Virus record (IMG/VR): IMGVR_UViG_3300025417_000566
Location: 1 to 64,000 of that record
Source: a virus
DNA length: 64,000 nt
Direction: 5' to 3' (one strand)
The notes beneath the pieces are model-generated. The model worked only from the letters and a program-made list of their open reading frames with translations, did no database searches and was not told where the DNA came from. The position numbers were made by a program, and so were the translations under genes. The stretch's first letter is position 1. Each line of letters opens with the position of its first letter. Of the stretch, positions 42,401-57,255 are shown piece after piece.

Positions 42401-45400
42401 CATTGTTAGAAGTGCAGACACATATAACTGGGTAGAAGTTCCAATCTTCCCTAACACATTAACAAGTTATGAGTTCTATGCAATTGCAAACGTTACATTG
42501 CCATCATTTACTGGATTAATTGCAGTGGGTAGTGGTCTACGTCCTGACGTAACGTCAGGTGTTACTGAGCAAGTAAGCACTAATGTAATATTCTATAGTA
42601 CAAACAATGGATTAAATTGGACACAAGTTAACTCATTAACACCAAATGGATTCTATGGAATTGCAGGCAACAACTCATTAATTCTTGCAGTTGGTTCAGG
42701 TGGTGTAATCTATTACAGCACTAACGGTGCAAGTTGGTTAGGTCTAAATCAAGTTCAAGTGATTTCTATCAATGCCGCAACTAACGTTATTAACGTAACT
42801 AATAGTGCTGGATTTGTATTAAATCAACCTGTGCGATTCAGTCAAGCGTTTGGTGGTCTAAGCACAAATACAACATACTATATTGTAAGTATTACCGGCG
42901 GAGCAATTAAAGTTTCATTAACACCAAGTGGTTCAGCAATTGTATTGACAAATGTAAACCCAAGTGCAGACCAAACAATGATGTTTGCGTATAATTCTGC
43001 TAACCCAAATCCAGCAACGTTGCGTGATATCATTTATGCAAATGGTATTTGGATTACAGTTGGTGATACTGGTACTATTAAGACATCTACAAATGGATTT
43101 AGTTGGACTACACAATCATCAGGTACTGTACAAAACTTACACTCAGTAACTTATAATAATACAACAAGCACATTTACAGTTGTTGGTGATAATAATACTA
43201 TTTTAGAATCTACAAACAACGGTGTGTCTTGGTCAGATATTTCTGTATTCAATGTTGCTCCTACTGTATACGATGTACAGGGTGCAGAATTCCCATATGG
43301 TTATGGTCCAGAAGAATTAGTTCCAGGTGTTGTAACAGACAGTATGGCTATGACAGTTATTACACGTCCTGGTACATTGTGGCCAGTAGTTGAATATTCA
43401 AATGCAGGTTATAATTCTGTATCATTAGAATTGACACCAACATCAGCAAGCCAAACTGTATACAGTTTTGCAAGTGCATCGCATTATCCTGCACAAGTTC
43501 GTGTGCAAGTACTTGATTCAACTACAATGTTGGGTACAACATTAGATGCAAGTGCATACACAGTTGATTGGATTAATAAGTCAATTACTCTTAACACTCC
43601 GTTGTCATACTTACCAAACACACAAAAATTAAGAATTGATGTATATGAAGTTGGTAACGGTAGTCAATTGGTTAAATCTAATACTGATACTAACCCTATT
43701 AGAAACAACACAGTAACAGGATTTGATGAGATTTACTTAGATTGTAATTACAGCCAAAACATTTACAGTGGTAGCGGTGTGATTCAACAAGGTACATACC
43801 CTATCAACACATTAGCAACTGAAACTTTTGCAGAAACTAACTATATTACATGTGCAAGTATTAGTAATTTCATATTGAACACACCTATTACATTCTTAGG
43901 TAATGTGTTCGGTGGTATTGTTGCTGGTACACAATACTATGTAAAATCAATTAGTACTGCAACAAATCAAATTACAATTTCAGCAACATACAATAGTGTA
44001 ACTGGTCAAGCAGGCCCAACCCTTGCATTGACTACTGCTACAGGTAGTATGGACGTTGCGATTGAAGTAGGTAACGGTCTTGTATGGACAGCACCAATTG
44101 TTTACTTAAACGGTACACAATTGGTAATGGGCGTAACAAACAATGTTATTGCTACAACAGCAGGAACTAATGCAATCACAACAAACTCAACAAGTGGTTT
44201 GATTGTTGGCACTCCTATTATGTTCAGTAGCACAATTTTTGGTGGTGTCATTCAACCATTGACAACATACTATATTAGTAGTATTATTGATATATATGAC
44301 ATTACAATCAGTGCAACTTTAGGCGGACCGACACTAGCATTAACTAACGCTAACGGTGGTGCAAGTTTTGTAACTAATGATTATGCGTTTGGAATTCAAC
44401 CAAATGGCATCCAAGCAAAAATGATCTTTAGTAGCAACACATATAACACAACAAATGATTATATTGTATATTCTGTATTTGGTCAAACTGAACCAGTGCA
44501 GATTGGTTATTCATTACCAACTGTACAAGAATTCATTGCAACAGGTCAAACATCATCTTATAACCTAAATAACTACTTAGGTGGAACAAATGCATACAAC
44601 GCAATTGTTGAAATTGATGGTGTAAGACAAACTATTTCTCAGTACACTATTAGTGAATTTGCTAAAACAATTAACTTTGTATCTAACCTATCAGCAGGTT
44701 CTAAGATAACTGTAACAACGTTTAATGACACACAACAGCAATACCTAACTACTCAGTATGGTATCACAGGTACCCCTGGCTCACAATTTATTGATCTAAC
44801 TGTTGGTTCAACAACTCACACTGTTGTAACATACGATCAAGGTGGCACAGCGGGCTTTGATAGTAATGGTTCTGTAAACGCTGGATCATTTGTTGTTGGA
44901 ACACAATATGAGATCACTACAGTAGGTACAACCAATTGGGTAGCAATTGGTGCAAGTTCTAATAACGTTGGTATTGTCTTTACTGCAACTGGTGTAGGAT
45001 CAGGTACTGGTGTTGCATTAGCAGTTGGCTTGTATGCAGAAAATTATAACTACTTAACATTGTCATCAGGAACAACAGCATCATTACAAGTCAATAACAG
45101 TTTGGTGTTCAGTGATGTTATTGGTGGAATTGTTGCTGGAAAAACATATTATGTTACACAGATTATTAACAGTACACAATTTGTAATTTCTGAATTAGTA
45201 GGAGGAGAACCTTTAACGTTAACAAACGCCACAGGCTCAATGTTGGCTACAGCAAATGGATTAACAGTAGCCCCAATTAGTAACATTTCAAACCAATTAA
45301 CAGCACCTCTTGCAGTTACATTTGCTAGTGCTACAACATCAGGTACTAACGCAATTACAGTAACAAGCACAAATGGATTTGTTGTTGGTAGAACTGCAAT

Positions 45401-46886
45401 ATTCCAAGGCACAGGCTTTGGTGGTATTGTAACTGACGGAACAGTATACTTTGTTGATACCGTAATTGATGATACTAATTTCACAATTATGGATCAATAT
45501 GGTAATCAAATTTCGTTGTCAAACGGAAGTGGCGACATGCAAGTCACAATTGATGGACAACCTGCAATTCGTGTAACTACAAGTATTGATAATTATTTTA
45601 ATGAAAATCAATTGGTCAACATCAATGGTACACAGGGTTCAGTACAACTCAACGGTAACACTTATTATGCAAGAATAATTACTAATACAACCTTTGACTT
45701 ATACACACAACCATATGATCCATCAATTAATGCTGTTAACTACCCAGTAACTACAGCGGCTTCTTGGACAGGTGGCGGATATGCTTGGAGATCAGGCGTG
45801 TTTGTACTGTCAACTACAACAGCAACAGCAACAACTTCAACTAATAACATTATTACTGTAGCAGACACAAGTAATTTGGTACAAGGTACTCCGATATTAT
45901 TCAATGAAATTGGATCAGTGCCCGGTGATGTAATCATGGGTGGACTAGTACAGGGAACAACTTATTATGTTGGAAGTATCTTTAACGGAACTGAATTCAA
46001 TGTAACAAGTTCACTATATGGAAGTACTGTAACGTTGACCAACGACAGTGGTAGTATGAATGTGGTACAATGGGTACAAAGCAATGTAGATCGTCTATGG
46101 GTAACTGTAAACGGCTTACGTGTACCTTCAAGTAACTTAAGTGTAAACCAATACAATGAAGTAGGTATTCTAACAGAGATTGTTCCGGGTGATGAAGTTA
46201 TCATTACTAACATGATTCCACAAGCAACACCTAATGAATTGACATACTTGAATCTAGTAAACACAGTGGGTGAGGCAGTTGTATACAGAGCCAACACACA
46301 AACTAGAACTTGGTTAACTCAACCAATCTATGATTTAAGCACAACGATTTATGTTAACGATGTGACTAGAATCACAACTACAATTACTGAAAATGCAACT
46401 GTACCTGCTGAAGTTGACGGATACTATTATGTTGGATTGAACGCTAACAAGAATAGTATTTCTAGTATCACAGTATTTGACACAACTACAAATAGTTTGA
46501 TTAATTCTAGTGAGTATGAACTTGTTATTGTAGATACTGCTCCTCAGATTAAAATCAATGGAACAGCAGTTTCAGCAGGAAATTCATTAGTTATTACTAT
46601 TTTAGAAGGTAATGTAATCTTAGTTAACGGAGAACAAATCAAGTTTACTACTGTTGATTTTGTTGCAAATTCAATTTCAGGTCTACAACGCGGGGCAAAT
46701 GGAACTGCAAGACAGCCGTTTATTCCAACTTATACTGAAGTATACGGATTATTACCAACTGGCATGTTGTCTAATAATTACTATAATCAGACTTGGAATT
46801 CATACGTTTACAATCAAACTTTGGGCGATCCACTGCAAATTAGTAACACAGTTCCTGCAGAATTCTTAAATACGGATGTTACCTAA
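27459..46886 (+). CDS. Giant 6475-residue baseplate / virion structural protein in the gp7 position
   Basis: A single uninterrupted frame of 19.4 kb encodes about 700 kDa. It directly follows gp6, where T4 has wedge initiator gp7 (1032 aa). The N-terminus (TLNFLPEIFQTTSNQQFLSA, IQGYIGSKFGYG, NFNQYYWLPFGPPS) resembles large structural proteins of marine T4-like phages; a Trp/Tyr-rich block lies near 1360-1520. Further on: FG-GAP-like propeller repeats (about 2380-3090), Asp-box repeats (about 4860-5260), a beta module of 65-80 residues present at least a dozen times, and duplicated GTG-rich and NGEQI modules. The C-terminus (LGDPLQISNTVPAEFLN) looks conserved rather than run-on. The ribosome site AGGA precedes ATG. 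Role: baseplate periphery or receptor contact; gp7 homology is from position only. Confidence 0.8.
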   Translation: MANTNRVRTLNFLPEIFQTTSNQQFLSATLDQLVNPPNLQRIQGYIGSKFGYGVNPNDYYVTEPTKTRREYQLDPGVVIKKTNENTAKDFITYPGILDALNLQNGVTNNNNRLFNSQFYSWDSFTNLDKIINFNQYYWLPFGPPSVTVASQTVYSTEQYVVTSLDNGYNIRIASAETGEINPTLTLLRGGTYTFLVDQDTQFWIQGQPGVTGYSPTQTNLYTRNVYGVENNGATQGYVTFTVPAADAQNEYQFPASGVNLDLVCTTPFSQINGQLLSTIGAIDGVTSLQGLQIMFYNTGIPNETGYVQTYYSETSYDTNDNTLVQPLTISVNQTAANVFTLASGTNASLNVNDTITFNNPTFGGVTAGSVYFINGLVGTTGFTISATLGGSILTLTNATGLMTANTNQGLLEEGYYTTVANNFYTVEYVGDPANPVIRLIPSGVIPTNQTITPAFGVQYNNLPFYRNTVGTIAEVPYISAPLNTLYYQDGTNADSVGVIKLIESNLSNTINVTTDILGQKTFTSTNGVVFTNGLKVSFDGDVIPTSYLSGEYYVEGVGTAIELIPVNSLICPEGFTEAVYNPYDSTNYDIGNWDLTDFVPVLPDYITIARNSINKNAWSRSNRWFHIDVINATASYNNDPTILTIYASATAKAQRPIIEFYPNLQLFNSGIIGKQAVDFFDTRTTDALTQVADQQNYYPDIQVYSTYTATVAGVTNATSTTITINASAVTGTLQQYQYITDSTNLLPRNSQIQSIALNNGVYTLNVSWQNATTFNTTTVASIVASDTTVNNYALFSGARVIFSADPTVSNTIFVVNLSTLTTGSTPVITMTPAEDSPCLTNEQVAVLRGYYHQGESYYYTGTSWDLAQEKTNVNQAPYFDMFDSNGVSFGDPSVYHSTTFTGTTLFQYGVGIGSIDTVLGFPISYSSIDNQGDIQFDVTLNSDTFNYVNGATPITENINTGYVYNYTVDRTLFRQLGWQTAVAPSVQYQYFEIPYSPATTTYTCDIAALTGTAATDAVWPVVQVYIDNVYQSPTSYTYTVGTNSTTIVLPQQPSTATLVQILLLSNQVSTTGYYQIPINLSNNPLNTNITVANVGDIRNQYQSIFYNNPNTTGQVFGPNNYRDLGDIVPYGTAIIQNSASLVLPGALLRVPDHNLFNALLYNSREYVNYKQLIVSTVSNTNFTQTYNPAQILDIALAQITQSKSPNQSFFWSDMIPSQAPYRSNIYTFNNALDTSIYPLSQVYNFETANYNGVLVYRTTKINDYQTVTEQLIKGQDYTVSTTAPSLEVTIELNAGDTITINEYNQTYGSYAPNTPTKLGLYPAFVPEVVLDSDYYTPTYFIKGHDGSFTKLYGEYINGVLQDYRDQALLEFETRVYNNLKLSNTIPIQAYDLIPGYFRQGTQQYSNQEWLEMYSTNFLNWIGQNRLNYKTQYYNTNDPFSYNYTNSGNKLDSTPIQQGYWRGVYQYFYDTTTPNETPWEMLYYPNQPSWWTERYGPAPYTSDNLVLWNDIANGVRWEDGVPVTVPELARPGLLNILPVDSAGNLVSPFVSIVGNYNPNTFQKDWVVGDDGPTELSYRRSSTWPFDFMRLQALMKPAEFFNLGVWVDNYKYNAEFNQYLVNDRSHLVPNEIPVYGSGTAVTSYLNWIVDFEKQQGIDATTNLTTLFNNLDVRLVYRLAGFSDQNQLAFYVEKASPNTTSSSLLIPNESYNILLYDNQPFDRIPYSSVVVQQNDGYYTVFGNAQQFAYFTVLNPVYDGQTYAIDIQSAKVKVAKNYSTKETIVPYGTSFYSTQELAQFLTSYGAWLQDRGMIFQDIQNGLEVTWNQMVAEFLYWSQTGWGTGSVITLNPAATLLTIDKVDCVVQPLTIQDQNFVLNQNLYPIQLKDMCIERNDTQFTLHALNQGDAFSYAQFDLGNFEHGIVFDNTTQFNDTIYNLVTGLRQIRINVRGAKTADWNGTVNAWGFILNQDNVQEWSPNLKYTKGQIVLYKNKYWVAQRVIEPTATFNQQNWKETNYNAVQIGMLPNPSTRSFESALYYNTNVSNLSQDANLLSYSLIGYRPRDYLATADLTDVTQINVYQNLIKNKGTRNAVNAFQGVTLPQGGISYNVYENWAILQGEFGGVANNNFVQFRINQANMTGDPSIFSLTNGVYTPGSMQEIPIYSLYNYKHNIDNPNILLTTNDAEPSTTNIYPDAGYVNFNDVKMSSYFYSGLPRATDITGQIVPIQNFYVRDYVWLANFLNTWNVYSLKPIGQVIQVRNNLNKTATITFAEPHGLSKLQPLAIVNFANNVDGYYIVTQVVNLNEVIINLNVATANQNTLTGQGIGLIFETQRAATPSEIGLLDLTEADFITNTVWVDENTDGNWAVYQKTINYQYNQQLEKPYATNFGTAVSYSPEMGYLVSDAPQGNVYRYVYDPLSSQSTGQPVYDISQTLTGGTSFGTTIVHQNNIYAISEPTSGTPKVYIYALNDSTVSTAAILYQTIAAPGGVTNWGSALAMSGDNNWLYISDIANNNVYVYRREQVLLNAGYFVTGQTYTIQSIGTTDFTAIGAVANDVGITFVATGAGTGTGTALQVTYAQSTVISGSSTAGSVSGDNFSASLSTDYYGQTLFVGAPDVNYSSTIENWGSAYAYQRTVQNVEAQQTSVAGQIQSFTLGWTPTAGATRTASATNGSTNYITCNAAMTGFAVNQAVVFNGSNFANCGIKPNVVYYIAGISGSTISIKTSRSSTTPVQLTTASGLSFGVYVQVDPLYVTVNGTLVQDNNYGVIGNQFVYSGALQAGDIINISDNQYTLVQNFNSQFNDRTGIHYGYAMDMNTFGTEVLVGSPFEINDTTGEEGATYRYTNVGAKYGVIIGTSVCNLLSSQYLFINGYLLFLTAGDATSIANQINSSKITNVQASVTTDGMLVIQVIDSEIAQPNNQLSISVVNEDVLDQLGLDVFVNTQVLVSPYAVGPTEFGTAIKFNESGSVVISAPVGTRYEFTSFDFTDNGTPDLDTVFDNNATRFVDSYPNAGAVYMYDYLGNYNENVANPGQFVFAQSVNSQNTSYGFNPLYGASLDFNNNTVVVGSPDFLPGVSDGQVVIYDNSVGTQDWGIYRQSAPIVDINSISNSQLFSATSNNTLVNLDYIDPLQGKILGSVRQNLDFVTNTDPARYNSDLASQTGYVWGANEVGKTWFNTNNVRFVNYHQNDVVYNSKYWGQVFPGSDVAVYTWVASNVPPQNYQGPGTPLDITLYAISSTLNASSVVVPIYYFWVRNTNLIFSETGKTLSDTILAQYIANPRGSGISFMAPVLPNTFAVYNSLSYFNGTDTVFNIAYSSNQDSGSDIYHQQFALIKENYAEDFLPGFPQYAYISSALSEPNGLYLRFINSLAGCDDAGGVVPDPYLPIQVQSGVQVRPRQSFFLDRFLALKNYLTFANEVLAQYPIVELRENLDFLYTVGDINPGTGLPYYDTTNYWEFVNWWAPGYSDNTRSVLQVPLYADLATLNVSAGTIVTVAQNGAGKFEVYITDGLGNWTRIGLQQGTIQFSSALWDYSSAGLGWDGNFFDTNVFDLYPSEETRYIVRALNEQIYTADLLIYRNQSLILLFQYIQSETTSSQNFLPWLNKTSLVDVDHKIRELLPLEVYQGDNEVFLEGYLNEVKPYHVTIKQFSFSYTGNDVFEGNITDFDLPAQWNNTYQEFISPELVYTLPNNEYEYLPSSSIWQTEAYNQWYQNYGVSLTGQDNYNITTLVSYLTPSSKYIIVDNANGFPINGTITIDGEQIGYSSVDRALNQLSGLVRGYNSTVVTNHIPGAKIYIDLPAVLLLSGGNGYSNPPRVTAVIDETLYPAPRTPAVLEAVMNLDSVLEINVIIPGSGYPVLPTIVIEPSSTIYFANTQVNSVLHTITVYAPDLVTGSQVQYFNDTSTNNGVGELADGQWYYINVLETTPTAVVALYVTYSDAINDANRIPIFNNGTGSAFSLNLGARASAISTAYPVRENSIRMKFDRTTYNSQVQDWQSSAYYGAFFAGSYRNNEDFSSSDVSLESTTPPIQYITAASGGGVVFEISDVTNDQQVEWSSFVRYVGATVASNNSIKLIPQDGNNDPNNPQPNASGTTVGFYVGMPIQFNGVGIGGLVGSTTSTPVIYYVHSIIDELYFTVSLSVGGPIVTLTYATVGAAGLECLTASVTNTAVLTVNYPGIITVTNTTAVTNVFTAPVSAIGTGGTNGFYVGIPLFFTEGLIGGVVLNQVYYVSTIIDEENFTISSSPTPLSTTVLSTASSTNIVTVYTTEGMKVNDPLIFNNMVISGSSVTDFGNIISGVTYYIKEIINSTEITISQYVNSTVFPLTTVAASSTTSALVTDQSSSTQLTTGLGAMIMNVNLPISPGQINGQLFNLYETSGQYPNIGTGVISELIGNTVNATIQTVNYVAFSNQQPTQFMYANMPVRFNTSIGGLSTNTTYYIKSLGVISVNCTTTSSSTNQITCNSTSTLYVGMPIKFSGVSLGGITIGQTYFVKSIVDSTHFTISATSGGSTLVLFTSNGEMVGTGDPYMVVSATLGGSAVSLTSSTARSSFVQYPTANPTFDISYAVGGYIAIINSAASGFAVNNVITIYGSYVGGTTPTNNVTLTVNTIGTDGQITGVIASGTVPASSSSYYLKVVSPNQLAVYSNPLLTVPVSGLDIPYVGFTVETVTGVNSSTNALTIADTTQFSQYDAVVFTGNTSIAQTNIVPNQTYYIYQILSPTTFTISTAPGDGSTVVTMVTTIAVNFTMAKAGSFAVLPQPFYFNQSIVKYNNRIYQCIISNNDSEFIFGKWQLLDSDSNLLNAMDRVIGYYQPTANMPGVDLTQLFEGVTYPNSTYYGNQFAPANQYPVDTILQDQPFYPTEVDITSVIWNGATYLATSNLPTYSAVLISPDGINWSIDTLANINVDITDILYAGGFYVITTTNSATPIYRSNDGINWTTNGYYTPYSDQPYDTTEYDSTSINVAQLALQAVTYSNGYYIAVGDNIVRSADTYNWVEVPIFPNTLTSYEFYAIANVTLPSFTGLIAVGSGLRPDVTSGVTEQVSTNVIFYSTNNGLNWTQVNSLTPNGFYGIAGNNSLILAVGSGGVIYYSTNGASWLGLNQVQVISINAATNVINVTNSAGFVLNQPVRFSQAFGGLSTNTTYYIVSITGGAIKVSLTPSGSAIVLTNVNPSADQTMMFAYNSANPNPATLRDIIYANGIWITVGDTGTIKTSTNGFSWTTQSSGTVQNLHSVTYNNTTSTFTVVGDNNTILESTNNGVSWSDISVFNVAPTVYDVQGAEFPYGYGPEELVPGVVTDSMAMTVITRPGTLWPVVEYSNAGYNSVSLELTPTSASQTVYSFASASHYPAQVRVQVLDSTTMLGTTLDASAYTVDWINKSITLNTPLSYLPNTQKLRIDVYEVGNGSQLVKSNTDTNPIRNNTVTGFDEIYLDCNYSQNIYSGSGVIQQGTYPINTLATETFAETNYITCASISNFILNTPITFLGNVFGGIVAGTQYYVKSISTATNQITISATYNSVTGQAGPTLALTTATGSMDVAIEVGNGLVWTAPIVYLNGTQLVMGVTNNVIATTAGTNAITTNSTSGLIVGTPIMFSSTIFGGVIQPLTTYYISSIIDIYDITISATLGGPTLALTNANGGASFVTNDYAFGIQPNGIQAKMIFSSNTYNTTNDYIVYSVFGQTEPVQIGYSLPTVQEFIATGQTSSYNLNNYLGGTNAYNAIVEIDGVRQTISQYTISEFAKTINFVSNLSAGSKITVTTFNDTQQQYLTTQYGITGTPGSQFIDLTVGSTTHTVVTYDQGGTAGFDSNGSVNAGSFVVGTQYEITTVGTTNWVAIGASSNNVGIVFTATGVGSGTGVALAVGLYAENYNYLTLSSGTTASLQVNNSLVFSDVIGGIVAGKTYYVTQIINSTQFVISELVGGEPLTLTNATGSMLATANGLTVAPISNISNQLTAPLAVTFASATTSGTNAITVTSTNGFVVGRTAIFQGTGFGGIVTDGTVYFVDTVIDDTNFTIMDQYGNQISLSNGSGDMQVTIDGQPAIRVTTSIDNYFNENQLVNINGTQGSVQLNGNTYYARIITNTTFDLYTQPYDPSINAVNYPVTTAASWTGGGYAWRSGVFVLSTTTATATTSTNNIITVADTSNLVQGTPILFNEIGSVPGDVIMGGLVQGTTYYVGSIFNGTEFNVTSSLYGSTVTLTNDSGSMNVVQWVQSNVDRLWVTVNGLRVPSSNLSVNQYNEVGILTEIVPGDEVIITNMIPQATPNELTYLNLVNTVGEAVVYRANTQTRTWLTQPIYDLSTTIYVNDVTRITTTITENATVPAEVDGYYYVGLNANKNSISSITVFDTTTNSLINSSEYELVIVDTAPQIKINGTAVSAGNSLVITILEGNVILVNGEQIKFTTVDFVANSISGLQRGANGTARQPFIPTYTEVYGLLPTGMLSNNYYNQTWNSYVYNQTLGDPLQISNTVPAEFLNTDVT
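34600..36730 (+). repeat. FG-GAP/integrin-like propeller repeats within the giant gene
   Basis: Repeated units carry FGTAVSYSPEMGYLVSDAP, WGSALAMSGDNNWLYISD, YGQTLFVGAPDVN, YGYAMDMNTFGTEVLVGSPF, FGTAIKFNESGSVVISAP and YGASLDFNNNTVVVGSPDF. Each ends in a V(G/S)AP or VGSP turn followed by a strand such as VYRY, VYVYR or VYMYDY. This is the pattern of seven-bladed FG-GAP beta-propellers, which often bind ligands or receptors. At least six blades are seen (residues about 2380-3090), interrupted by one GTG-rich module and one of the common beta modules. Confidence 0.7.
39650..46070 (+). repeat. Cluster of diverged 65-80-residue beta modules within the giant gene
   Basis: Copies share the pattern VGxPIxFxGxxFGGIVxGxxYY followed by VxxIxDxxxFxISxTxGG and LTLTNATGxM. 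Approximate nt positions: 39650-39920, 39995-40210, 40210-40440, 40640-41070 (two), 41460-41690, 42750-42990, 43815-44060, 44150-44370, 45045-45260, 45318-45550 and 45810-46070. Outlying copies lie at 28455-28660 and 35440-35690. DNA identity between copies is low, so they are old duplications. They alternate with Asp-box and other domains. Confidence 0.75.
42040..43240 (+). repeat. Asp-box (sialidase-type) repeats within the giant gene
   Basis: Units of the type SPDGINWSID, SNDGINWTTNG, STNNGLNWTQV, STNGASWLGL, STNGFSWTTQS and STNNGVSWSDIS follow strands such as ILYAGGFYVITT, VTYSNGYYIAVGD and IIYANGIWITVGD. SxDGxxW is the Asp-box turn found in sialidases and other six- or seven-bladed propellers. 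No sialidase catalytic arginine triad can be assigned, so a binding role is more likely than catalysis. Confidence 0.75.
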
Positions 46887-46888
46887 AT

Positions 46889-46896
46889 GATAAATA
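46889..46896 (+). promoter_or_regulatory. Late box GATAAATA, 5 nt before the start of the 51-aa gene
   Basis: GATAAATA, AAGAA, then ATG at 46902. It begins 3 nt after the stop codon of the giant gene and overlaps an alternative in-frame ATG at 46887. Confidence 0.55.
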
Positions 46897-46901
46897 AAGA
46901 A

Positions 46902-47057
46902 ATGAACAATATTAAATCAAAAAGTCAAGGAAATCAGGGTAAAAAACAACCTCCTACCAAACCTAACGAGCATGGTGGGTTCTACTTTTCCTCTAGTGTA
47001 AAGATTTTTGATCCAAATAGTAAACAAGTTTTGGTACAGAAAAGAGGGGATGCTTAA
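46902..47057 (+). CDS. Small structural-gene-cluster protein (51 or 56 aa)
   Basis: The frame runs ATG 46887 or 46902 to TAA 47055-47057 and overlaps the next ATG by 1 nt (TAATG). I prefer 46902 because a late box ends 5 nt before it, but 46887 is possible. The first half is Lys/Asn/Gln/Pro-rich. The second half, GFYFSSSVKIFDPNSKQVLV, resembles the N-terminus of the next protein (GFLKIYDPNSGEIFVDKK), suggesting a duplicated small beta element. Function unknown; tight linkage to the next gene suggests a shared structural role. Confidence 0.7.
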   Translation: MNNIKSKSQGNQGKKQPPTKPNEHGGFYFSSSVKIFDPNSKQVLVQKRGDA

Positions 47058-47677
47058 TGTCGGTTATTAATTTATCCTTGAAAGTTGAGGGATTCTTGAA
47101 AATCTACGACCCCAATTCAGGTGAAATTTTCGTAGATAAAAAGAATGCAATCAATTATGAAAACATGTCAGAAGCCATTGCTGATACACTAAGTGATCGT
47201 GGGTATGGAGAAATCTTCCAAATGGCGTTTGGTAACGGTGCGGCTTCAGTATCAGATACTGGAGTTATTACGTATTTGCCACCAAACGTAACTGGACAGA
47301 ATGCGGCATTGTATAATCAAACATATGCTAAGATCGTAGATGATACTAACGTACTTAATTTGGATCCTACACGCAATAATATGACAGTTTACCATACTTC
47401 TGGTAACGTTTATACTGACATTTTGGTTCAATGTCTACTAGATTACGGTGAGCCTGCAGGTCAGGCCGCGTTCGATAACAGTACGCAGACGGATTCTAGT
47501 TACATTTTTGATGAATTAGGCTTATTGGCCAACTACGGAACAGATGCTAACGGTAATACAATTACAAGACTATTGACACACGTGATTTTTCACCCTGTTC
47601 AAAAGTCATTGAACAGACAAATTCAAATTGATTATACGGTTAGAATACAAGCGTTAACCAACTTGGTAACAATATAA
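47057..47677 (+). CDS. Virion structural protein, unknown, after the giant gene (gp8 position)
   Basis: The 206-aa product shows no enzyme motif. Segments such as FQMAFGNGAASVSDTGVITY and ELGLLANYGTDANGNTITRL followed by LLTHVIFHPVQKS look like a beta-rich baseplate or fibre-attachment protein of the kind found in marine T4-like phages. The N-terminal KIYDPNSGEIFVDKKNAI repeats the motif of the preceding small protein. T4 has gp8 in this position (334 aa), but I see no alignment. Confidence 0.7.
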   Translation: MSVINLSLKVEGFLKIYDPNSGEIFVDKKNAINYENMSEAIADTLSDRGYGEIFQMAFGNGAASVSDTGVITYLPPNVTGQNAALYNQTYAKIVDDTNVLNLDPTRNNMTVYHTSGNVYTDILVQCLLDYGEPAGQAAFDNSTQTDSSYIFDELGLLANYGTDANGNTITRLLTHVIFHPVQKSLNRQIQIDYTVRIQALTNLVTI

Positions 47678-47685
47678 GATAAATA
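47678..47685 (+). promoter_or_regulatory. Late box GATAAATA before the fibre gene
   Basis: The box starts right after the stop codon of the previous gene. The leader to ATG 47707 holds CGGAGTGAT as ribosome site. Confidence 0.65.
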
Positions 47686-47706
47686 AAGATAACGGAGTGA
47701 TAGATT

Positions 47707-48936
47707 ATGGCATATACAATTGTTAAAAGTAATGGTACAGTACTAACAACCATTGCTGACGGTACTATTAATACAACTAGTACCTCTCTAGGGTTACCAG
47801 GTAGAAATTATCCTGGTTACGGTCAACCAATGGACGAAAACTTTGTTTGGCTTACTGAGAATTTTGCAAATGCAACTCCTCCAGCAAATCCATTGACAGG
47901 TCAACTTTGGTATAATACAAATAACCAAACAATGTATATCTGTCCAACAGATGGACAGTCAAATGCCGCAGCCTGGTTATCATTAACGGCAACTAGTTCA
48001 GGTGGCGCAACAACATTTGGTGCTGTTACTGTTACAGGAAACTTAGCAGCCGGAAATCTATCAGCAGTAAGCAATCTATCAGCAAATGCTACTACAACAG
48101 CATTCTTAACCGTATCAGCAAACGCAAATATCGCTAATGCTAACATCACTCAAGCAAGCATTGGAACATTAACTACATCAAATATCACAACAGGTAGCGC
48201 CACAACCGGCGGAAACTTAACTGGTGTTTGGACTGTTACTGGTTCAGCAGGTGGAAACAACGCTGTAGCATTTAACTTTATTCAAGGTGGTATTGCTATT
48301 AGTAACTCAGCCGGCGCCAATCTATATGGTATTGCTACTGACAAGTACATGTATGCTAATGGTACCCCAGTAAGTTTTGCAGGTACATATAGTAACAGCA
48401 ACGTGGCTGCATATATGCCAACATACGCTGGTAACGGTTTATTTACACAAGTACAATGTAATGTGTTCACAACAGGTGCAAACACAACAGCAGGAACTAT
48501 CACAGGTAACTGGACATTGACAACAGGATCAAGATTACAAGCAACATACGCTGACTTGGCAGAACGCTTTGAGGCAGACGATGTTTACGACCCGGGTACA
48601 GTTGTACAATTGGGCGGTGAAGCAGAAATTACTGCCGTAGAATACGAATTAAGTGAAGACGTATTTGGTGTTATCAGTAACACAGCGGCTTATTTGATGA
48701 ACGCAGGGGCAGGTAGTGATGCTACTCACCCACCAGTAGCAGTTTCGGGTCGTGTTGAAGTTAAAGTAACAGGTAAAGTTACAAAAGGACAACGTTTAGT
48801 TAGTGCTGGTAACGGTATAGCACGTGCGGCTCAACCAAATGAAGCAACAGCATTTAATGTCATTGGCCGCGCATTAGCAAACAAAACAGACGATGGTTTA
48901 GGCACAGTTGAAGCCATTGTTTCGATTACGAAATAA
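47707..48936 (+). CDS. Tail fibre protein with a conserved C-terminal trimer/chaperone-like domain
   Basis: The 409-aa product has an N-terminal attachment-type domain (PGYGQPMDENFVWLTENFAN, NPLTGQLWYNTNNQTMYI), a repetitive Ala/Asn/Thr middle (about 100-270) fit for a trimeric shaft, and a C-terminal domain from about 280: YADLAERFEADDVYDPGTVV, DVFGVISNTAAYLMN, PPVAVSGRVEVKVTGKVTKG. That C-terminal pattern recurs in cyanophage fibres and resembles self-processing or chaperone ends of phage fibres; no catalytic residues can be assigned. It should contact the host surface. Confidence 0.82.
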   Translation: MAYTIVKSNGTVLTTIADGTINTTSTSLGLPGRNYPGYGQPMDENFVWLTENFANATPPANPLTGQLWYNTNNQTMYICPTDGQSNAAAWLSLTATSSGGATTFGAVTVTGNLAAGNLSAVSNLSANATTTAFLTVSANANIANANITQASIGTLTTSNITTGSATTGGNLTGVWTVTGSAGGNNAVAFNFIQGGIAISNSAGANLYGIATDKYMYANGTPVSFAGTYSNSNVAAYMPTYAGNGLFTQVQCNVFTTGANTTAGTITGNWTLTTGSRLQATYADLAERFEADDVYDPGTVVQLGGEAEITAVEYELSEDVFGVISNTAAYLMNAGAGSDATHPPVAVSGRVEVKVTGKVTKGQRLVSAGNGIARAAQPNEATAFNVIGRALANKTDDGLGTVEAIVSITK

Positions 48937-48945
48937 GGATAAGAA

Positions 48946-49899
48946 ATGAGTTACGCACAATATGGATTAGTACAGGCAACTGACTTTAACACGTTCGTAG
49001 GTGGTAATCCAACCACTACATCTAATACACTAAACGCAGTTTGGGCAACAGGTGGTGGTAGTGCAGGATATGGACAAACATCAGTAGCAAACGTTGCTAC
49101 TGGTAACACAGTTGTCGCTACTGGACAATGGAACGCATTGGTTGCTAACACAGCAAGCGCCGCAACTCACCAAGGCTCATCAATTACAGCAGTAACAGCG
49201 CCTACAGCAGGTGGTACAATTACATATCTTAGTGCTATCCCAACTAACCTATCAACAATTTACACAAATAAATTGAATGCCGCAAGTCAAGGCTCAACTT
49301 CTTCAAACACAGCAACTTTTGGTAGCACATGGAGTAGTGCATTAACATTTACATTTAGTGCATCATTTGCGAACGGTGACGCCGCACGTTATTTCTTTAA
49401 CGCAGGTGGTCAATTAAAACTAACTTGTTCACACCCAACAGGTACAGGTATTAATTTACTGTTGAACAACTTAGCAAGTAACGTTGGTACAGTTGTTATG
49501 AGCGCACCAAGTTCAGGTTCTGTATCTATTGCAAGTACTTCATTTAATGGTATTACTAAGATCGGTGGCGGTGGTAACTCTCCAACAATCAGCACAAACA
49601 GTGGATACTATGCGATGACCACATCAAACGTCACAGTATTCACACAAACAGCGTCAACAGGTCCTTCTGGATATTTGGCAACAAACATCAAGTTTATTGC
49701 TAAGTCAAACGGTACTGTTGGTTCAAACGCTGACGCAGGTAACGTAATTACCATTTATTCAACATGGACTGAAATCCCAACTGGATTGGTTGCAAGTTCT
49801 GGTTCTGCTGTAACTCTTACAGTTGTACCACCAGAAACAACTAATATTGCCAATACTTGGGGTACTATTACATTAACCGGTTCAGTAACAGGTTCATAA
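48946..49899 (+). CDS. Fibre or virion surface protein, Ser/Thr/Ala/Gly-rich
   Basis: The 317-aa product has few charged residues and long beta-prone Thr/Ser/Asn stretches. The first 130 residues are helical with Ala/Thr (NTLNAVWATGGGSAGYGQTS), the rest holds beta elements such as ALTFTFSASFANGDAARYFF and NAGGQLKLTCSHPTGTG, then ITIYSTWTEIPTG. It follows the fibre gene by 9 nt with GGATAAGA as ribosome site and is the last gene of the structural block. A structural role is inferred from context and composition. Confidence 0.65.
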   Translation: MSYAQYGLVQATDFNTFVGGNPTTTSNTLNAVWATGGGSAGYGQTSVANVATGNTVVATGQWNALVANTASAATHQGSSITAVTAPTAGGTITYLSAIPTNLSTIYTNKLNAASQGSTSSNTATFGSTWSSALTFTFSASFANGDAARYFFNAGGQLKLTCSHPTGTGINLLLNNLASNVGTVVMSAPSSGSVSIASTSFNGITKIGGGGNSPTISTNSGYYAMTTSNVTVFTQTASTGPSGYLATNIKFIAKSNGTVGSNADAGNVITIYSTWTEIPTGLVASSGSAVTLTVVPPETTNIANTWGTITLTGSVTGS

Positions 49900-49916
49900 C
49901 ATTTTTAGGGTAGACG

Positions 49917-49959
49917 TTGTATCCATCTAAATACTCATAGGAGTGTACGATGGATACAA
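49917..49959 (+). promoter_or_regulatory. 11-bp inverted repeat enclosing a late promoter, ribosome site and start codon
   Basis: TTGTATCCATC (49917-49927) pairs perfectly with GATGGATACAA (49949-49959), which contains the ATG of the next gene. The 21-nt loop contains most of the late box CTAAATAC (49927-49934) and AGGAG (49938-49942). In a read-through mRNA the stem would bury the start codon. An mRNA starting from the late box (about 49940) lacks the left arm. This is the arrangement known for T4 gene e (lysozyme). Confidence 0.65.
49927..49934 (+). promoter_or_regulatory. Late box CTAAATAC heading the accessory operon
   Basis: Predicted start of transcription is near 49940, giving a short leader with AGGAG before ATG 49950. 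The genes that follow to the window end overlap or nearly touch, so this box probably drives much of the operon. Confidence 0.6.
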
Positions 49960-50255
49960 AACAATTAATTGCAGACGCCAAAGCCCGTTTCAGTCACAAT
50001 TCTGCCAAAGCATATCTAGCAGAAAAATACCGTAACAAACTACTTGTCGCAGAACAAGGCGGCTTATGGAAAGCCGACGGTGAAACCATTACCTTATTAA
50101 CCTCAATCAATTCAAAACGAGCAGTACTTATTGATACTTTTGACAATCCAGTAGAAGTTGACCGTAACGTATTATTAACTAAACTAAAAGAAGTCTATTC
50201 AGAAGTCATGGATCAATGGCTAAAAGAATGGAAAGAACTAGAGGCTAAACGATGA
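49950..50255 (+). CDS. Small conserved phage protein, unknown
   Basis: The 101-aa product begins MDTKQLIADAKARFSHNSAK and contains GGLWKADGETITLL and a C-terminal helix (KLKEVYSEVMDQWLKEWKEL). I recognise it as a type of small protein common in marine T4-like phages but without known function. It opens the accessory operon and overlaps the next gene by 4 nt (ATGA). Its start codon lies in the inverted repeat at 49917-49959, so its translation, and that of coupled genes, may depend on the late promoter. Confidence 0.75.
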   Translation: MDTKQLIADAKARFSHNSAKAYLAEKYRNKLLVAEQGGLWKADGETITLLTSINSKRAVLIDTFDNPVEVDRNVLLTKLKEVYSEVMDQWLKEWKELEAKR

Positions 50256-51058
50256 GTAGAGGGGCAATATTATTTGCTTTTAACTCACCTAAATATGATT
50301 ATTATGCAATGGCTAAGTACACAGCCAAACGCATTAATCATTTCTTAGACTTGCCAGTTACAATTGTAACTGACGAACAATCATTGCCGAAAACAGAAGA
50401 CTATGTTTGGGATAGTATTGTAACAACCACTCCAGATAAAAATAATATCAGAGACTATGGTGTTTGGATTAACAAGGGTAGATATCAAGCATATGAATTC
50501 AGCCCATATGAAGAAACATTATTATTAGATGCTGACTATGTTGTAAACTCAGATAAGTTATTGAAAACCTTTGAGTTTTACGATGACTTTTGCTGTCACA
50601 ATAAAACAAACTTTTTAATGCATCCTGGCGTACCCCAAGAAGTATTAAGTGTTTATAGTTATGAAACACTTTGGGCAACTGCCGTAACCTTTAAGAAAAG
50701 TAAACGGGCAGAGCAAATTTTTAACTGTTTAGAAATGGTACAAAATAATTATGATCACTACGCTAATATTCATAGTTTCATTGGTGGAGTATATCGTAAC
50801 GACTATGCACTTACTTTGGCTCTTCGCATTGTTAATGGTCATAGTACTAATCCTAGAGATATAATACCCTGGGACTTAGTACACGTAGGTAAAAACACTA
50901 GTGTGTATGCAAATAGTAATGATGAGTTTAATACTGAATACACAGTAATGTTTGACAATTGGCAACGTGGCAAGATTCGTAAAGAATATATTACAATTAA
51001 AGACATGGACTTTCATGTAATGAATAAAGATAACTTTGTGGAGATGATTAATGAATAA
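50252..51058 (+). CDS. Glycosyltransferase-like protein with DAD motif (paralogue 1)
   Basis: The 268-aa product begins with a Rossmann-like first strand (GAILFAFNSPKYDYYAMA), has VTIVTDEQSLP, and carries LLLDADYVVN near residue 90, a DxD-type motif that binds metal and nucleotide sugar in GT-A enzymes. Helical AYEFSPYEETLLLDAD is shared in pattern with the next gene (VYEASPYEYTIKLEAD), indicating paralogy. It is close to GT8-like phage proteins. Substrate unknown. It overlaps both neighbours by 4-8 nt. Confidence 0.65.
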   Translation: MSRGAILFAFNSPKYDYYAMAKYTAKRINHFLDLPVTIVTDEQSLPKTEDYVWDSIVTTTPDKNNIRDYGVWINKGRYQAYEFSPYEETLLLDADYVVNSDKLLKTFEFYDDFCCHNKTNFLMHPGVPQEVLSVYSYETLWATAVTFKKSKRAEQIFNCLEMVQNNYDHYANIHSFIGGVYRNDYALTLALRIVNGHSTNPRDIIPWDLVHVGKNTSVYANSNDEFNTEYTVMFDNWQRGKIRKEYITIKDMDFHVMNKDNFVEMINE

Positions 51059-51797
51059 AGGATTTGTTATCATGGCACAAGGTGACGATTATGTTAAGTG
51101 TGCCGAAGTATTAAAGAAAAACATTAAGCGTACTATGCCTAAAGCCAAAGTAACTATCATTACAACTGATATGCTACCCTATGGTGATCAAGCACCTGAT
51201 ACTAATTGGAAACTACAAAACGATTGGCAAGTATATGAAGCCAGTCCATATGAATATACAATCAAACTAGAAGCAGATATGTATTTACCGCGATCAATTG
51301 ATTATTGGTGGGACGTATTGCAACATAGAGATATGGTTGTTAGTACTACAATTAGAAACTTTAAACAAGAAATTAGTGATATCAAGGCATATCGTAGATT
51401 TATCTATGATAATAAACTACCTGACACATACAATAGCATTACTTACTTTAAGAAATCTGACACAGCACAGCAATTTTATGAAATTGTTCGTGATGTTTTT
51501 GAGAACTGGCCTTTCTATCGCAACTCACTACAATGTAACAAAGATGAATTGGCTACAACAGATTGGGCATATGCGATTGCTAGTCATATCATTGGCGCAG
51601 AGAAAACAACATTACCCCAGTTTACTGATATGAGCATGATTCACATGAAACAATTTATTAATGGAACTCCTACACAAGATTGGAGAGATGTTTTATTATA
51701 TGAAGTATCCAAAGATTCGTTGAGGGTAAACACAATTCCCCAAATGTATCCTTTTCACTATCATATGAAAGACTTTTGTGATAACATTAAGGTATAA
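51051..51797 (+). CDS. Glycosyltransferase-like protein with EAD motif (paralogue 2)
   Basis: The 248-aa product starts MNKGFVIMAQGDDYVKCAEV, has VTIITTDMLPYGD and YEASPYEYTIKLEADMYLPR, parallel to the preceding protein. The DxD aspartate is replaced by EAD, so metal binding may differ or activity may be lost. It overlaps the upstream gene by 8 nt. The pair looks like an old tandem duplication. Substrate and acceptor unknown. Confidence 0.62.
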   Translation: MNKGFVIMAQGDDYVKCAEVLKKNIKRTMPKAKVTIITTDMLPYGDQAPDTNWKLQNDWQVYEASPYEYTIKLEADMYLPRSIDYWWDVLQHRDMVVSTTIRNFKQEISDIKAYRRFIYDNKLPDTYNSITYFKKSDTAQQFYEIVRDVFENWPFYRNSLQCNKDELATTDWAYAIASHIIGAEKTTLPQFTDMSMIHMKQFINGTPTQDWRDVLLYEVSKDSLRVNTIPQMYPFHYHMKDFCDNIKV

Positions 51798-51800
51798 TAA

Positions 51801-52154
51801 ATGACAGAAGCCAAAGAAGAAGATTACGTATTATTTTGGGAAGCACCCAAAATTGAAAAACCTGAATTCAGACTTTACTATGACGCAAAAGGCAGTGTTG
51901 TTTGTTATACTTGTGAAAAGTTAGACGGGGATTATATTGTAATTGATGCACTTACTTATGCAGAAGGACGCCCCGATGTTCGTGTTGTTAACGGAAAATT
52001 AGTAAAAATTAACAACAATGCAGTAGTAAGTAAATTAGTTCCTGATGAAGAAGAAGGTCAACTTTGTTCTATTGATGATGTTAGTATCATCGTTACAAAG
52101 AAAGACAAAGTAAAAAAACAAAAATGGAAATTAGCAACTTATGAACTCGGATGA
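51801..52154 (+). CDS. Conserved hypothetical protein of the accessory operon
   Basis: The 117-aa product is acidic at the start (MTEAKEEDYVLFWEAPKIEK) and lysine-rich at the end, with beta-prone segments (FRLYYDAKGSVVCYTCEKLD). Two cysteines (VCYTC) are spaced Cx2C but no second pair is present. It overlaps the next gene by 14 nt. No function recognised. Confidence 0.65.
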   Translation: MTEAKEEDYVLFWEAPKIEKPEFRLYYDAKGSVVCYTCEKLDGDYIVIDALTYAEGRPDVRVVNGKLVKINNNAVVSKLVPDEEEGQLCSIDDVSIIVTKKDKVKKQKWKLATYELG

Positions 52155-53094
52155 TATTGTTGATGTAGCAGACTTAGATTGCATTTATCTAAGTTATGAC
52201 GAACCACAGAAAGAAGAATTTTGGTTAAAGATTAAGAACATGGTTCCTTGGGCAAAGCGTGTTGATGGGGTCAAAGGTAGTGATGCCGCACACAAAGCCG
52301 CAGGTGAGGCAAGTGAAACAGAACGTTTTATTCTTATTGACGGTGACAACATGCCTGATGAAGAATTCTTCAACATTCAGTTAGACTTTACTGATAAGAG
52401 TCCTAACTATAAACAAGCACAGTTTCGTTGGAAAGCAGTTAATGCTATCAACGGACTACGATACGGTAACGGTGGCATGAGCAGTTGGACAAAGACTTAT
52501 GTTGCTAATATGAAAACACACGAAAATCAAAATGAAGGTGATGTTTCACGTATTGCTGACTTTTGTTTAGATAGCGCAGACAACTTATACTGGGCTATGT
52601 ACGATTGCTATAGCACGACCTACCCTAATTACACTCCCTTTCAGGCTTGGCGTGCAGGTTTTCGTGAAGGTGTCAAGATGTGTTTGAATCGCGGTGCTGT
52701 ACCCAGCATTGAAGAATTCAAAGAAACAGTTGCCAGTCGCAATCTAAACAACCTTACAATTTGGCACAATGTGGGCACAGATGTTGAGAATGGTATTTGG
52801 GCTATCTATGGTGCTAGATTAGGCACATACATGACTATGTTATCTGATTGGGATCATACTAATGTTCAATGGTTTGATAACTATATTGAAATGTGGGACC
52901 AATACAAAGACAGAGATCCTCAACACTCAGCAGAATTTTTTGGTGAAGCATTGAGTGACAAGTTAGGTCTACCTATCTGTACACTTAGCCCAGAACAAAG
53001 CAAGTTTTTCAAACGTCATTATAATAGTGATAAACATAACTTAGGTCCTTTAGTAACTGAAATGGATGTTATTCGTAGGATCGAAGGCTGGTAA
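52141..53094 (+). CDS. Glycosyltransferase-like protein with DGD motif
   Basis: The 317-aa product begins DIVDVADLDCIYLSYDEPQK and contains TERFILIDGDNMPDEEFF near residue 60-75, where DGD would serve as the DxD motif of a GT-A-type transferase. Other segments (YGNGGMSSWTKTYVANM, WAMYDCYSTTYPNYTPFQAW) are typical of a phage protein set often found beside radical SAM genes. No sugar specificity can be read. It ends one base into the next ATG (TAATG). Confidence 0.6.
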   Translation: MNSDDIVDVADLDCIYLSYDEPQKEEFWLKIKNMVPWAKRVDGVKGSDAAHKAAGEASETERFILIDGDNMPDEEFFNIQLDFTDKSPNYKQAQFRWKAVNAINGLRYGNGGMSSWTKTYVANMKTHENQNEGDVSRIADFCLDSADNLYWAMYDCYSTTYPNYTPFQAWRAGFREGVKMCLNRGAVPSIEEFKETVASRNLNNLTIWHNVGTDVENGIWAIYGARLGTYMTMLSDWDHTNVQWFDNYIEMWDQYKDRDPQHSAEFFGEALSDKLGLPICTLSPEQSKFFKRHYNSDKHNLGPLVTEMDVIRRIEGW

Positions 53095-54497
53095 TGTCAA
53101 ACGAAACAGATAGAATTAAACAGATTAAAATTCGTGTACAGAACGAATCTACACCTACATTCTGTTTGGCAAAGTGGCATCACGTTACAATGTACTTACA
53201 AAGTGGTGAGACGCATAGTTGTTATCATCCACGACCGCACAAGATTCCATTAGAAGAATTGCGTGACAATCCCAGTGCATTGCACAATACGCACGAAAAG
53301 AAATTAGAACGCAAAATGATGCTTGAGGGTAAAAAGCCTGAAGGGTGTCAATATTGCTGGAACATTGAAGCAATGGGACCTGACTATATCAGCGACCGTC
53401 ATATTCGCAACAGCAGTATCTTTACTGAAGAACGCTTTGAGCAAACAGCGAAAGGTCCTTGGGATCAAAATATCAATCCAGAATACTTAGAGATTAACTT
53501 TGGTAACGAGTGTAATTTCAAATGCGGTTACTGTCATCCAAAGTATAGTACAAGTTTCTATAAAGAGATTGAAAAGTTTGGTCCTGTTACTAATGTAAAG
53601 AATCATCGTTGCGACATTGACTGGATGAAACTATATCAACGTGAAGAAGAAAATCCTTATGTTGATGCGTTTTGGAAATGGTGGCCTGAACTGCGCAAGA
53701 CATTAAACATCATGCGTGTTACTGGTGGCGAACCCACACTTCATAAATCTACATGGCAACTGTTAGATAAGATTGAAGAAGAACCCATGCCTTGGCTTGA
53801 ACTAAACATTAACAGCAATCTTGGAACAAAGCCAGTTCTCATAGAACGTTTAGCAGACAAGGTCAAAAAGTTAGTAGACGAAAATAAAATTCAAAGTTTT
53901 AAATTGTTTACTAGCATGGATACATGGGGAGAACGTGCTGAGTATATTCGCACTGGGTTAGACTTAGAATTGTGGGAACAAAACTTTCACACTTATGTAC
54001 AACGTAGTAACAGCCCAATTACATTCATGATTACATTCAATATCTTTAGTGTGACTTCATTTAAGTCATTGCTTGAGAAGTTTTTAGAATGGCGTGAACA
54101 ATATGGTTGGTTTGAAGAAAAGTCACACGACAAACATAGAATTCGTTTTGATACTCCATACCTTCGTGACCCTATTCAATATGACATGAACATTCTTCCC
54201 AAAGAAGAGTTTATGCCCTATATGTATGAATCATTACAGTTTATGAAGGACAATGTAGACGATACTGCTAGTAACAAGTTTACAACAATAGAATATGAAA
54301 AGTTTAAGCGTGTAGTTGACTACATGGCTGAAACTAATTATGAAGAAAAGAAATTGATTGAAGGTCGTAGAGACTTTTACAACTGGTTCAATGAGTTAGA
54401 TGATCGCAGAGAAAATGACTTATTAACCGTGTACCCAGAAATGTTGGAGTTTTATAGATTATGCCAGGAAACCAGCCTAACGAATCCTCTTTCGTAA
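53094..54497 (+). CDS. Radical SAM enzyme 1 (twitch-type)
   Basis: The 467-aa product has the radical SAM cluster motif Cys140-x3-Cys144-x2-Cys147 (NECNFKCGYCHP) and MRVTGGEPTLH (Gly211-Gly212-Glu213) for SAM binding. Upstream, FCLAKWHHVTMYLQSGETHS followed by CYH and later CQYC provide ligands for an auxiliary iron-sulfur cluster. This plan matches the twitch/SPASM-like radical SAM proteins. The core is longer than in its neighbours and it is the most diverged of the four similar genes. Substrate unknown: a peptide, sugar or nucleotide modification is possible. A 1-nt overlap with the gene before it. Confidence 0.85.
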   Translation: MSNETDRIKQIKIRVQNESTPTFCLAKWHHVTMYLQSGETHSCYHPRPHKIPLEELRDNPSALHNTHEKKLERKMMLEGKKPEGCQYCWNIEAMGPDYISDRHIRNSSIFTEERFEQTAKGPWDQNINPEYLEINFGNECNFKCGYCHPKYSTSFYKEIEKFGPVTNVKNHRCDIDWMKLYQREEENPYVDAFWKWWPELRKTLNIMRVTGGEPTLHKSTWQLLDKIEEEPMPWLELNINSNLGTKPVLIERLADKVKKLVDENKIQSFKLFTSMDTWGERAEYIRTGLDLELWEQNFHTYVQRSNSPITFMITFNIFSVTSFKSLLEKFLEWREQYGWFEEKSHDKHRIRFDTPYLRDPIQYDMNILPKEEFMPYMYESLQFMKDNVDDTASNKFTTIEYEKFKRVVDYMAETNYEEKKLIEGRRDFYNWFNELDDRRENDLLTVYPEMLEFYRLCQETSLTNPLS

Positions 54498-55762
54498 AAA
54501 AGTTATTGCTTGGTAAGAGCAAGACTTTTTGTATGATACCTTGGGTTCATTTGCACACTACACCCACCGGTGTAGCCGCGCCTTGCTGTATTGCAGAATC
54601 GTGCGCAACTCCTGACGGTGTTGGTGATTCTAAGACGCAAGGACTAATGGAATTAGTTAACAGCGAAAAGATGAATCAACTACGACTTGACATGTTGACT
54701 GGTAAAGAAAACATTGAATGTAGTAAGTGTTATAACCATGATGCTCAGGGCATTGATAGTTTTAGAACCACATCTAATGAGCAGTGGAAAAATGCTTTTG
54801 ATGACGTATTAGAAAATACCAATCTTGAAGATGGGTCACTAAAGAAATTCAAGATGCGTTACTTTGATATTCGTTTTAGCAATATCTGTAACTTTAAATG
54901 TCGCACATGTGGTTCAGCATTTAGTACTCAGTGGGAACAAGAAGATTTAAAGAGTGGAGTATTCTACGCAAAGATCATTCCAAAAAACAATAACAAAAAG
55001 TTCTTGCAAGACGTAGTAGATCAAATTCCAAATATGGAAGTTGCATACTTTGCAGGTGGTGAACCATTGATTACTGAAGAACATTATATTCTATTAGAAG
55101 AAATGATTCGCAGTAACCATACAGATATACTATTGCGTTACAATACTAACCTAAGTAATTTAAAATTTAAAGACAAAGACTTGCTTGGACTATGGAAACA
55201 CTTTAGTAAGAAAATTCAGATTTACGCAAGTATTGACCACTGCAAAGAACGTGCTGAGTATATCAGACATGGAACTGATTGGGGACAAGTTGAAACAAAC
55301 TTTATGCTTGCTAAACAAACGCCTTATGTTAATATTCAAATTAACACAGTATTGAGTGTGTTTAATTATTTGACTATTGATGAGTTTTATCAATACTTGA
55401 TTGACAAGAATATGTATACTAACAAAGATGCAGTATTCACATTGTACAATATGACAACTCCTGATCATTTAACATGTCATATCTTGCCACCTGAGTATAA
55501 AGCAAAGGGTGAAGAAAGTATCAACCGAGCAATTGCATACATGAAAACCAATAGATTTATTGACAAACATCTACAACAACTAGAAGTTGCTCCTGGTTGG
55601 GTAAATCACAAAGATAATTGGGATGAGCAAAAAGTTAAATTTAGAGAAGAAGTAAAAAGACTTGATATACTAAGGGGTGAATCATTTATGGAAACATTCC
55701 CTGAGATTGCAAATCTTTATATACCAGAACAACGAGTAAGAGCAAGAATGGCACCAGTATGA
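54461..55762 (+). CDS. Radical SAM enzyme 2 (twitch-type, paralogue of enzyme 3)
   Basis: The 433-aa product has Cys24 in FCMIPWVH, Cys42-Cys43, Cys87-x2-Cys90 (auxiliary ligands) and the SAM cluster Cys143-x3-Cys147-x2-Cys150 (ICNFKCRTCG), then AYFAGGEPLITEEH. It overlaps gene 1 by 37 nt, an unusually long overlap; a later non-ATG start is possible, since the conserved part begins near GKSKTFC. Two stretches are nearly identical in DNA to radical SAM gene 3, one of them 41 nt without a mismatch. It overlaps gene 3 by 4 nt. Confidence 0.85.
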   Translation: MPGNQPNESSFVKKLLLGKSKTFCMIPWVHLHTTPTGVAAPCCIAESCATPDGVGDSKTQGLMELVNSEKMNQLRLDMLTGKENIECSKCYNHDAQGIDSFRTTSNEQWKNAFDDVLENTNLEDGSLKKFKMRYFDIRFSNICNFKCRTCGSAFSTQWEQEDLKSGVFYAKIIPKNNNKKFLQDVVDQIPNMEVAYFAGGEPLITEEHYILLEEMIRSNHTDILLRYNTNLSNLKFKDKDLLGLWKHFSKKIQIYASIDHCKERAEYIRHGTDWGQVETNFMLAKQTPYVNIQINTVLSVFNYLTIDEFYQYLIDKNMYTNKDAVFTLYNMTTPDHLTCHILPPEYKAKGEESINRAIAYMKTNRFIDKHLQQLEVAPGWVNHKDNWDEQKVKFREEVKRLDILRGESFMETFPEIANLYIPEQRVRARMAPV

Positions 55763-56994: not shown

Positions 56995-56996
56995 AC

Positions 56997-57254: not shown

Positions 57255-57255
57255 G

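Follow-up and report, generated by a model that had tools for sequence, protein, structure and literature searches.

Results

Gene content of the locus

The window analysed here, a 64,000-nucleotide stretch that forms part of a 79,114-base IMG/VR record, carries on its plus strand an operon that begins with a small gene, p101 (101 aa; 49950-50255). The second cistron, GT268 (268 aa; 50252-51058, plus strand), encodes a predicted GT-A glycosyltransferase, and its ATG overlaps the p101 stop codon as ATGA, a 4-nt overlap found in 73 of 89 records. The remainder of the operon (51051-58527, plus strand) consists of overlapping or closely spaced cistrons for proteins of 248, 117 and 317 aa, four radical SAM proteins and a protein of 85 aa. 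In relatives with enough sequence p101 is likewise followed by GT268, GT248, p117, p317b and radical SAM genes in varying number, so the term accessory, which a preliminary description of this DNA had applied to the operon, is wrong for this group.

Structural models gave some indication of what these genes encode. The GT268 model (pLDDT 89.3) resembles GT-A enzymes, glycogenin for one (E 1e-6; TM-score near 0.4), and all four radical SAM proteins belong to NF033640, a family of twitch-domain radical SAM proteins. The predicted fold of p101 (pLDDT 93.9) resembles DUF4376 domains: Foldseek against BFVD returned an uncultured-phage protein as the best match (E 2e-9) and many DUF4376 entries with probabilities of 0.9-1.0 but weak E values of about 0.02-0.1. 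Pfam gave no match to the p101 of the window. A comparison with the PDB yielded prefoldin with a Z of 7.5, a value in the common range, and no DUF4376 entry, although this comparison tests little. In the cited parts of three papers DUF4376 is attached to fibre chaperones (PMC7289586, PMC10579305, PMC7882524), and we regard a DUF4376/Tfa-type fibre chaperone as a lead to the identity of p101.

Upstream of p101 lies a unit of two ORFs, one of 409 aa starting at 47707 (plus strand), preceded by a late box of its own at 47680-47685, and one of 317 aa ending at 49899, for which no family match was found. The unit is probably fibre-like, as judged from its position and from a Peptidase_G2 domain in the 409-aa ORF, and its own late box is present in 86 of 87 records. 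Further upstream, a single ORF of 6475 aa (27459-46886) takes up nearly a third of the window.

An inverted repeat places the p101 start codon opposite the promoter flank

Between the stop codon of the 317-aa ORF and the p101 ATG at 49950, beginning 17 nt past that stop, lie two arms of 11 nt each, 100% complementary and 21 nt apart. The left arm, TTGTATCCATC, occupies 49917-49927, and the right arm, GATGGATACAA, occupies 49949-49959, covering p101 from the AUG (49950-49952) to the second base of codon 4. Between the arms stand the late box TAAATA (49928-49933), which with the preceding C reads CTAAATA, and the ribosome site AGGAG (49939-49943); the preliminary description, which had claimed just this arrangement, was exact. 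The ribosome-site strand can also pair with ATACTC (49931-49936) to form an inner helix, helix 2, in which 82.0% of cells are paired according to a pair-count across 37 leaders. Judged by the spacing in T4 and Aeh1, late transcription would start at 49939, the sixth nucleotide after TAAATA. Both the left arm and the ATACTC strand lie 5' of this position, so the left arm would be missing from late mRNA, and the ribosome site would form its 5' end.

The length of the repeat is by itself weak evidence, because the number of such repeats is close to that expected by chance: counting perfect arms with loops of 3-60 nt, we found five inverted repeats of at least 11 bp in the 64-kb window, where 10 Markov shuffles averaged 1.4. 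What exceeds chance at the p101 leader is the position of the repeat and its conservation.

The hairpin does not resemble an intrinsic terminator, as no T-run adjoins the stem and the next letters are AACAATTAATTG; no plus-strand terminator was called within 46700-50400, and no Rfam family matched 49500-50400 up to E 1. A T-run of at least 5 does occur in 76 of the 93 leaders compared below (49902-49906 in the window, directly past the upstream stop); most relatives have it 22-28 nt ahead of the late box, and mostly no stem adjoins it. A terminator ahead of this T-run was considered and rejected, since the stems found there mostly do not lie next to it.

The arms are conserved and co-vary across relatives

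This phage group is only distantly related to named phages. Megablast with 46000-58000 and tblastn with p101 gave no match among them, and the 603-aa portal ORF shows 47-55% identity to the best named records, led by jumbo phages, Agrobacterium phage Atu_ph07 among them. We compared relatives gathered with p101 (16 loci), with the 317-aa ORF (the best 80 of 265) and with a p101 profile (the best 80 of 217); together these searches yielded 165 loci that have a p101 start, a large share of them on shared contigs, and 93 distinct leaders. TAAATA precedes p101 in all 93, at 16 nt from the ATG in 45 and at 15 nt in 18, with extremes of 5 and 36 nt.

In 73 of the 93 leaders the stretch 5' of the predicted start pairs with the start region at z <= -2, whereas only 4 of 176 other box-driven genes (94 non-redundant records) reach this level; the count shifts slightly with the shuffle and the set used, to 73/93 or 71/93 leaders and 72/93 box sites. 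When no transcription start was imposed, 81 of the 93 leaders had the lowest-energy partner of the AUG 5' of the box, and 6 more had it between the box and position -1. The partner thus falls 5' of the predicted start in 87/93 p101 leaders, compared with 49/176 other box-driven genes.

The two arms change together. With the register fixed as in the window, 72% of the first 10 gene positions form Watson-Crick pairs across 87 distinct arm pairs, a value that drops to 17-28% when the register is slid by one to three bases. At the ninth gene base the pair is U-A in 20, A-U in 12, G-C in 11 and G.U in 9 of the 87; at the eighth it is G-C in 46 and A-U in 10; and at the sixth it is A-U in 63 and G-C in 7, where G-C accompanies a change of codon from GAT to GAC. 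None of 5000 permutations of the arms was as well paired, whether 86, 75, 67 or 56 representatives were used. When the pair-count tool was applied to 37 leaders, 18 cells had changed in both arms, where shuffles gave 5.1 and none of 500 reached that number; the covariation score was 0.144 in register and 0.035-0.070 when slid. Compensatory change in the arms, which the preliminary description had proposed looking for, is thus present.

Other measures were less decisive. Two further outputs of the pair-count tool were unremarkable (pairs with change on both sides, 55 of 500 shuffles; further pair types, 150 of 500), and exchanging left and right segments by duplex energy gave a weak result, with a median z of -1.0 and 24% of cognates ranking among the best 5%, probably because many leaders have arms in common. 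Tree parsimony gave 17 paired double changes, compared with 3-12 in slid registers. RNAalifold returned only 3 inner pairs from all 37 representatives with 16-nt spacing; once seven hairpin-less or off-register rows (L035, L067, L073, L074, L081, L088 and L150) were left out it returned 11, and the outer helix (8 outer pairs) appeared only then.

Rebuilt, weakened and lost hairpins

Several leaders build an equivalent structure from other sequence. L026 and L090 carry arms of different sequence that end at or just before the ATG; their ribosome sites have predicted exposures of 0.0008 and 0.0009 in the long form and of 0.67 and 0.84 in the short form. The left arm of L055 is CATCTAAATA and includes the late box. 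L025 and L097, whose nearest relatives differ, have the ATG five nucleotides after the box and lack a ribosome site, and both retain the hairpin; they are predicted to combine a leaderless late start with a hairpin gate.

Twenty of the 93 leaders pair weakly (z > -2). In L003 and L004 the hairpin is gone and the late box is still present; a 122-aa ORF, possibly endonuclease-like, is inserted there between the fibre-like ORF and p101 (locus position 4001). L049, L050, L061, L066 and L130 carry a small extra gene between the 317-aa ORF and p101, and their hairpin is weak or absent, while L073, L081 and L048 pair weakly with no inserted gene to account for the loss. A link between hairpin loss and an upstream terminator found no support in a crude scan (terminator in 4/22 hairpin-less against 6/71 hairpin-bearing leaders, Fisher p 0.24). 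The preliminary description had named unconserved arms as evidence against its reading; that most leaders pair and that the arms co-vary speaks for conservation, and the 20 weak or missing cases imply that the hairpin is not indispensable.

A second gate was sought at a 270-aa scaffold-like gene (window 2173, minus strand) and rejected: its z values of -3.6/-3.1 in the window are not kept in most relatives. Many leaders of this gene (window 2132-2173, minus strand; L185-L264) have a stem and T-run before the box, and in several relatives the late box reads ATAAGTA.

TAAATA as a probable late promoter

In the cited part of one source the T4 late box, TATAAATA, spans -13 to -6, and that of Aeromonas phage Aeh1 is CTAAATA, starting from -12 (PMC1524935). 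The Aeh1 sequence is identical to the box before p101; other late-box candidates in the window, unlike the Aeh1 form, often read ATAAATA, whereas the gated operon has CTAAATA. Across 94 non-redundant records with 2114 candidate starts, TAAATA was counted 274 times at a distance of up to 60 nt, compared with 85-193 times for other orderings of its letters. Its distance to the ATG shows an isolated peak at 5 (11 cases), with none at 6-9, 6 cases at 2-4 and the rest at 10 or more. This gap would be accounted for if transcription began at the sixth base past the box, with leaderless mRNAs at 5 and leaders holding a ribosome site at 10 or more. The histogram therefore agrees with a late p101 mRNA that, we infer, starts at 49939, the A of AGGAG. 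In the window TAAATA-N5-ATG stands at 4310 (minus strand) before the 603-aa portal ORF, at 2483 (minus strand) before a 77-aa ORF and at 59477 (plus strand) before a 447-aa ORF, and genes of this type in these phages are predicted to have leaderless late mRNAs.

Late boxes mark the head of the operon and hardly its interior, which supports the late box noted there in the preliminary description. The box was found at p101 in 89 of 89 records and at the 409-aa gene in 86 of 87, at the 317-aa gene in 23 of 92, and within the operon almost nowhere: GT268 1/76, GT248 1/85, p117 0/52, p317b 5/74 and the first radical SAM gene 0/54. An ORF at 13564-14496 (minus strand) contains a gp55-like late sigma domain (domain match 13573-13899). 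Such a domain was found in 16 of 19 records examined, including that of the window; no match came from L047, L070 and L055, whose records may be fragments. Sigma-70-like matches upstream of p101 are near chance (13 against 10.7 expected).

Predicted folding separates the two transcript forms

Folding of both transcript forms, which the preliminary description had suggested computing, gave the contrast that its reading predicts. Across the 93 leaders the predicted exposure of the AUG has a median of 0.02 for read-through RNA and of 0.60 for the late form, with a gain above 0.3 in 74 leaders and a loss of equal size in one; shuffling the left parts gave a mean exposure of 0.33. T4 gene e under the same folding method goes from 0.03 to 0.72. 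With 100 nt of downstream sequence included, the AUG of the window's late form was less open (0.38/0.21/0.20).

Discussion

Comparison across relatives establishes, at the level of sequence, a conserved and co-varying hairpin on the p101 start codon, with a late box between its arms, an operon behind it and a late sigma in the same genomes. We propose that an mRNA entering from upstream would hold both arms, so that the AUG would be paired and the inner helix would pair most of the ribosome site, and translation from p101 onward would not occur. A gp55-type late RNA polymerase would instead start an mRNA at the box between the arms, at about 49939, and this mRNA, lacking both the left arm and the inner strand over the ribosome site, would be translated. 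Because the second cistron overlaps p101 by ATGA and most relatives have no further late box in the operon, gating p101 would gate the operon through translational coupling. It is very likely, on this comparative evidence, that the start-codon gate is real and works like that of T4 gene e: the architecture that the preliminary description had likened to gene e holds up in the position of the AUG partner 5' of the predicted start, in the covariation of the arms and in the presence of a late sigma. We hold with considerable confidence the broader reading of a cis-acting RNA gate on p101 that is passed to the operon by coupling and most likely insulates it; within this reading the position of the transcription start, the block to translation and the coupling are steps that we infer.

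What the gate may be for depends on the RNA that it silences. Since the upstream unit has a late box of its own, with no terminator called before p101, the RNA that reads through is probably late itself; the gate would then sort mRNAs by start site and by time only indirectly. The operon would thereby be expressed from its own promoter, whatever reads through from the late fibre-like unit, and would also, as a consequence, be limited to the late phase. A gate by transcript origin, in which ribosomes tell two late mRNAs apart and so insulate the low-dose enzymes of a putative fibre-modifying operon, is a reading that we find credible though far from assured. The same hairpin might instead serve the purpose that the cited sections give for T4 e and I-TevI, a time delay (PMC3014915, PMC2988022), in which early or middle read-through RNA is silenced and the operon waits for the late phase; the gp55-like sigma is in keeping with this, which we hold possible and somewhat doubtful. 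The cistrons upstream are fibre-like and carry their own late box almost without exception, and no early promoter class is known here, the sigma-70-like matches being near chance, all of which weighs against delay and makes it more likely that the gate insulates the operon than that it delays it. Restriction to the late phase, the role that the preliminary description had assigned to the switch, would then be only an indirect effect of where the mRNA starts.

Explanations that dispense with a gate must account for the same leaders. A hairpin at the 3' end of the upstream fibre-like mRNA, acting in stability or as an RNase site with the AUG in its arm by accident, would fit a stem that begins 17 nt past the upstream stop and is preceded by a T-run in most leaders; it is unlikely, since no U-run follows the stem, no plus-strand terminator was called, the loop contains the box and the predicted start, and the right arm falls on the AUG or the ribosome site in most leaders. 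The palindrome could also act as DNA, bound around the late promoter by a dimeric regulator: such an element would co-vary too, and the arms flank the box exactly. We consider this quite improbable, as the arms of L026, L090 and L055 have been replaced wholesale, unlike those of an operator, and the distance from box to ATG ranges from 5 to 36 nt. Moreover, C-to-T changes opposite G, which keep a U.G pair, account for 29 of 41 cases, while T-to-C changes opposite A account for 11 of 49; these counts of G.U against C.A favour RNA, although the sequences are related to one another and a bias in mutation could produce the same pattern. Least probable of all is a chance repeat that never pairs in vivo, arising from a conserved promoter flank (TATCCATC) next to a conserved protein start (MDT). 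Both flanks are indeed conserved and 11-bp repeats are not rare in 64 kb, but the variable positions co-vary beyond any of 5000 permutations and the arms have been rebuilt in unrelated sequence.

The gating logic is known, in the sections cited, for T4 e, soc, 49 and I-TevI (PMC3014915 section 29; PMC2988022). In T4 gene e, as here, only read-through RNA can pair the AUG and the ribosome site directly follows the box, and one folding method predicts the same contrast in exposure for both genes. Unlike gene e, the gated gene here is a small, fibre-chaperone-like protein at the head of a glycosyltransferase/radical SAM operon, and the upstream unit appears late rather than early; the two phages are only distantly related, as the portal comparison indicates. 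The late transcripts of T4 I-TevI and Aeh1 mobE, according to the part of the source cited, also lose one helix strand over the ribosome site (PMC2988022), as predicted here for the inner helix; these are homing endonucleases within or beside early or middle genes, and p101 is not one. We recognised no description of a gate at a p101-type gene in the open-licence PMC literature, whose partial coverage makes this a weak negative.

The T4 logic has been documented for a few genes of T4 relatives, and here it can be followed across 93 distinct leaders, in which compensatory change, rebuilt arms and losses provide strong comparative evidence that selection keeps such gates. The gate stands at a different type of gene from T4 lysozyme, in a large group of uncultured T4-like phages, where it precedes an operon of predicted glycosyltransferase and radical SAM genes, and it suggests how late phage transcription could insulate the dosage of an operon without a terminator.
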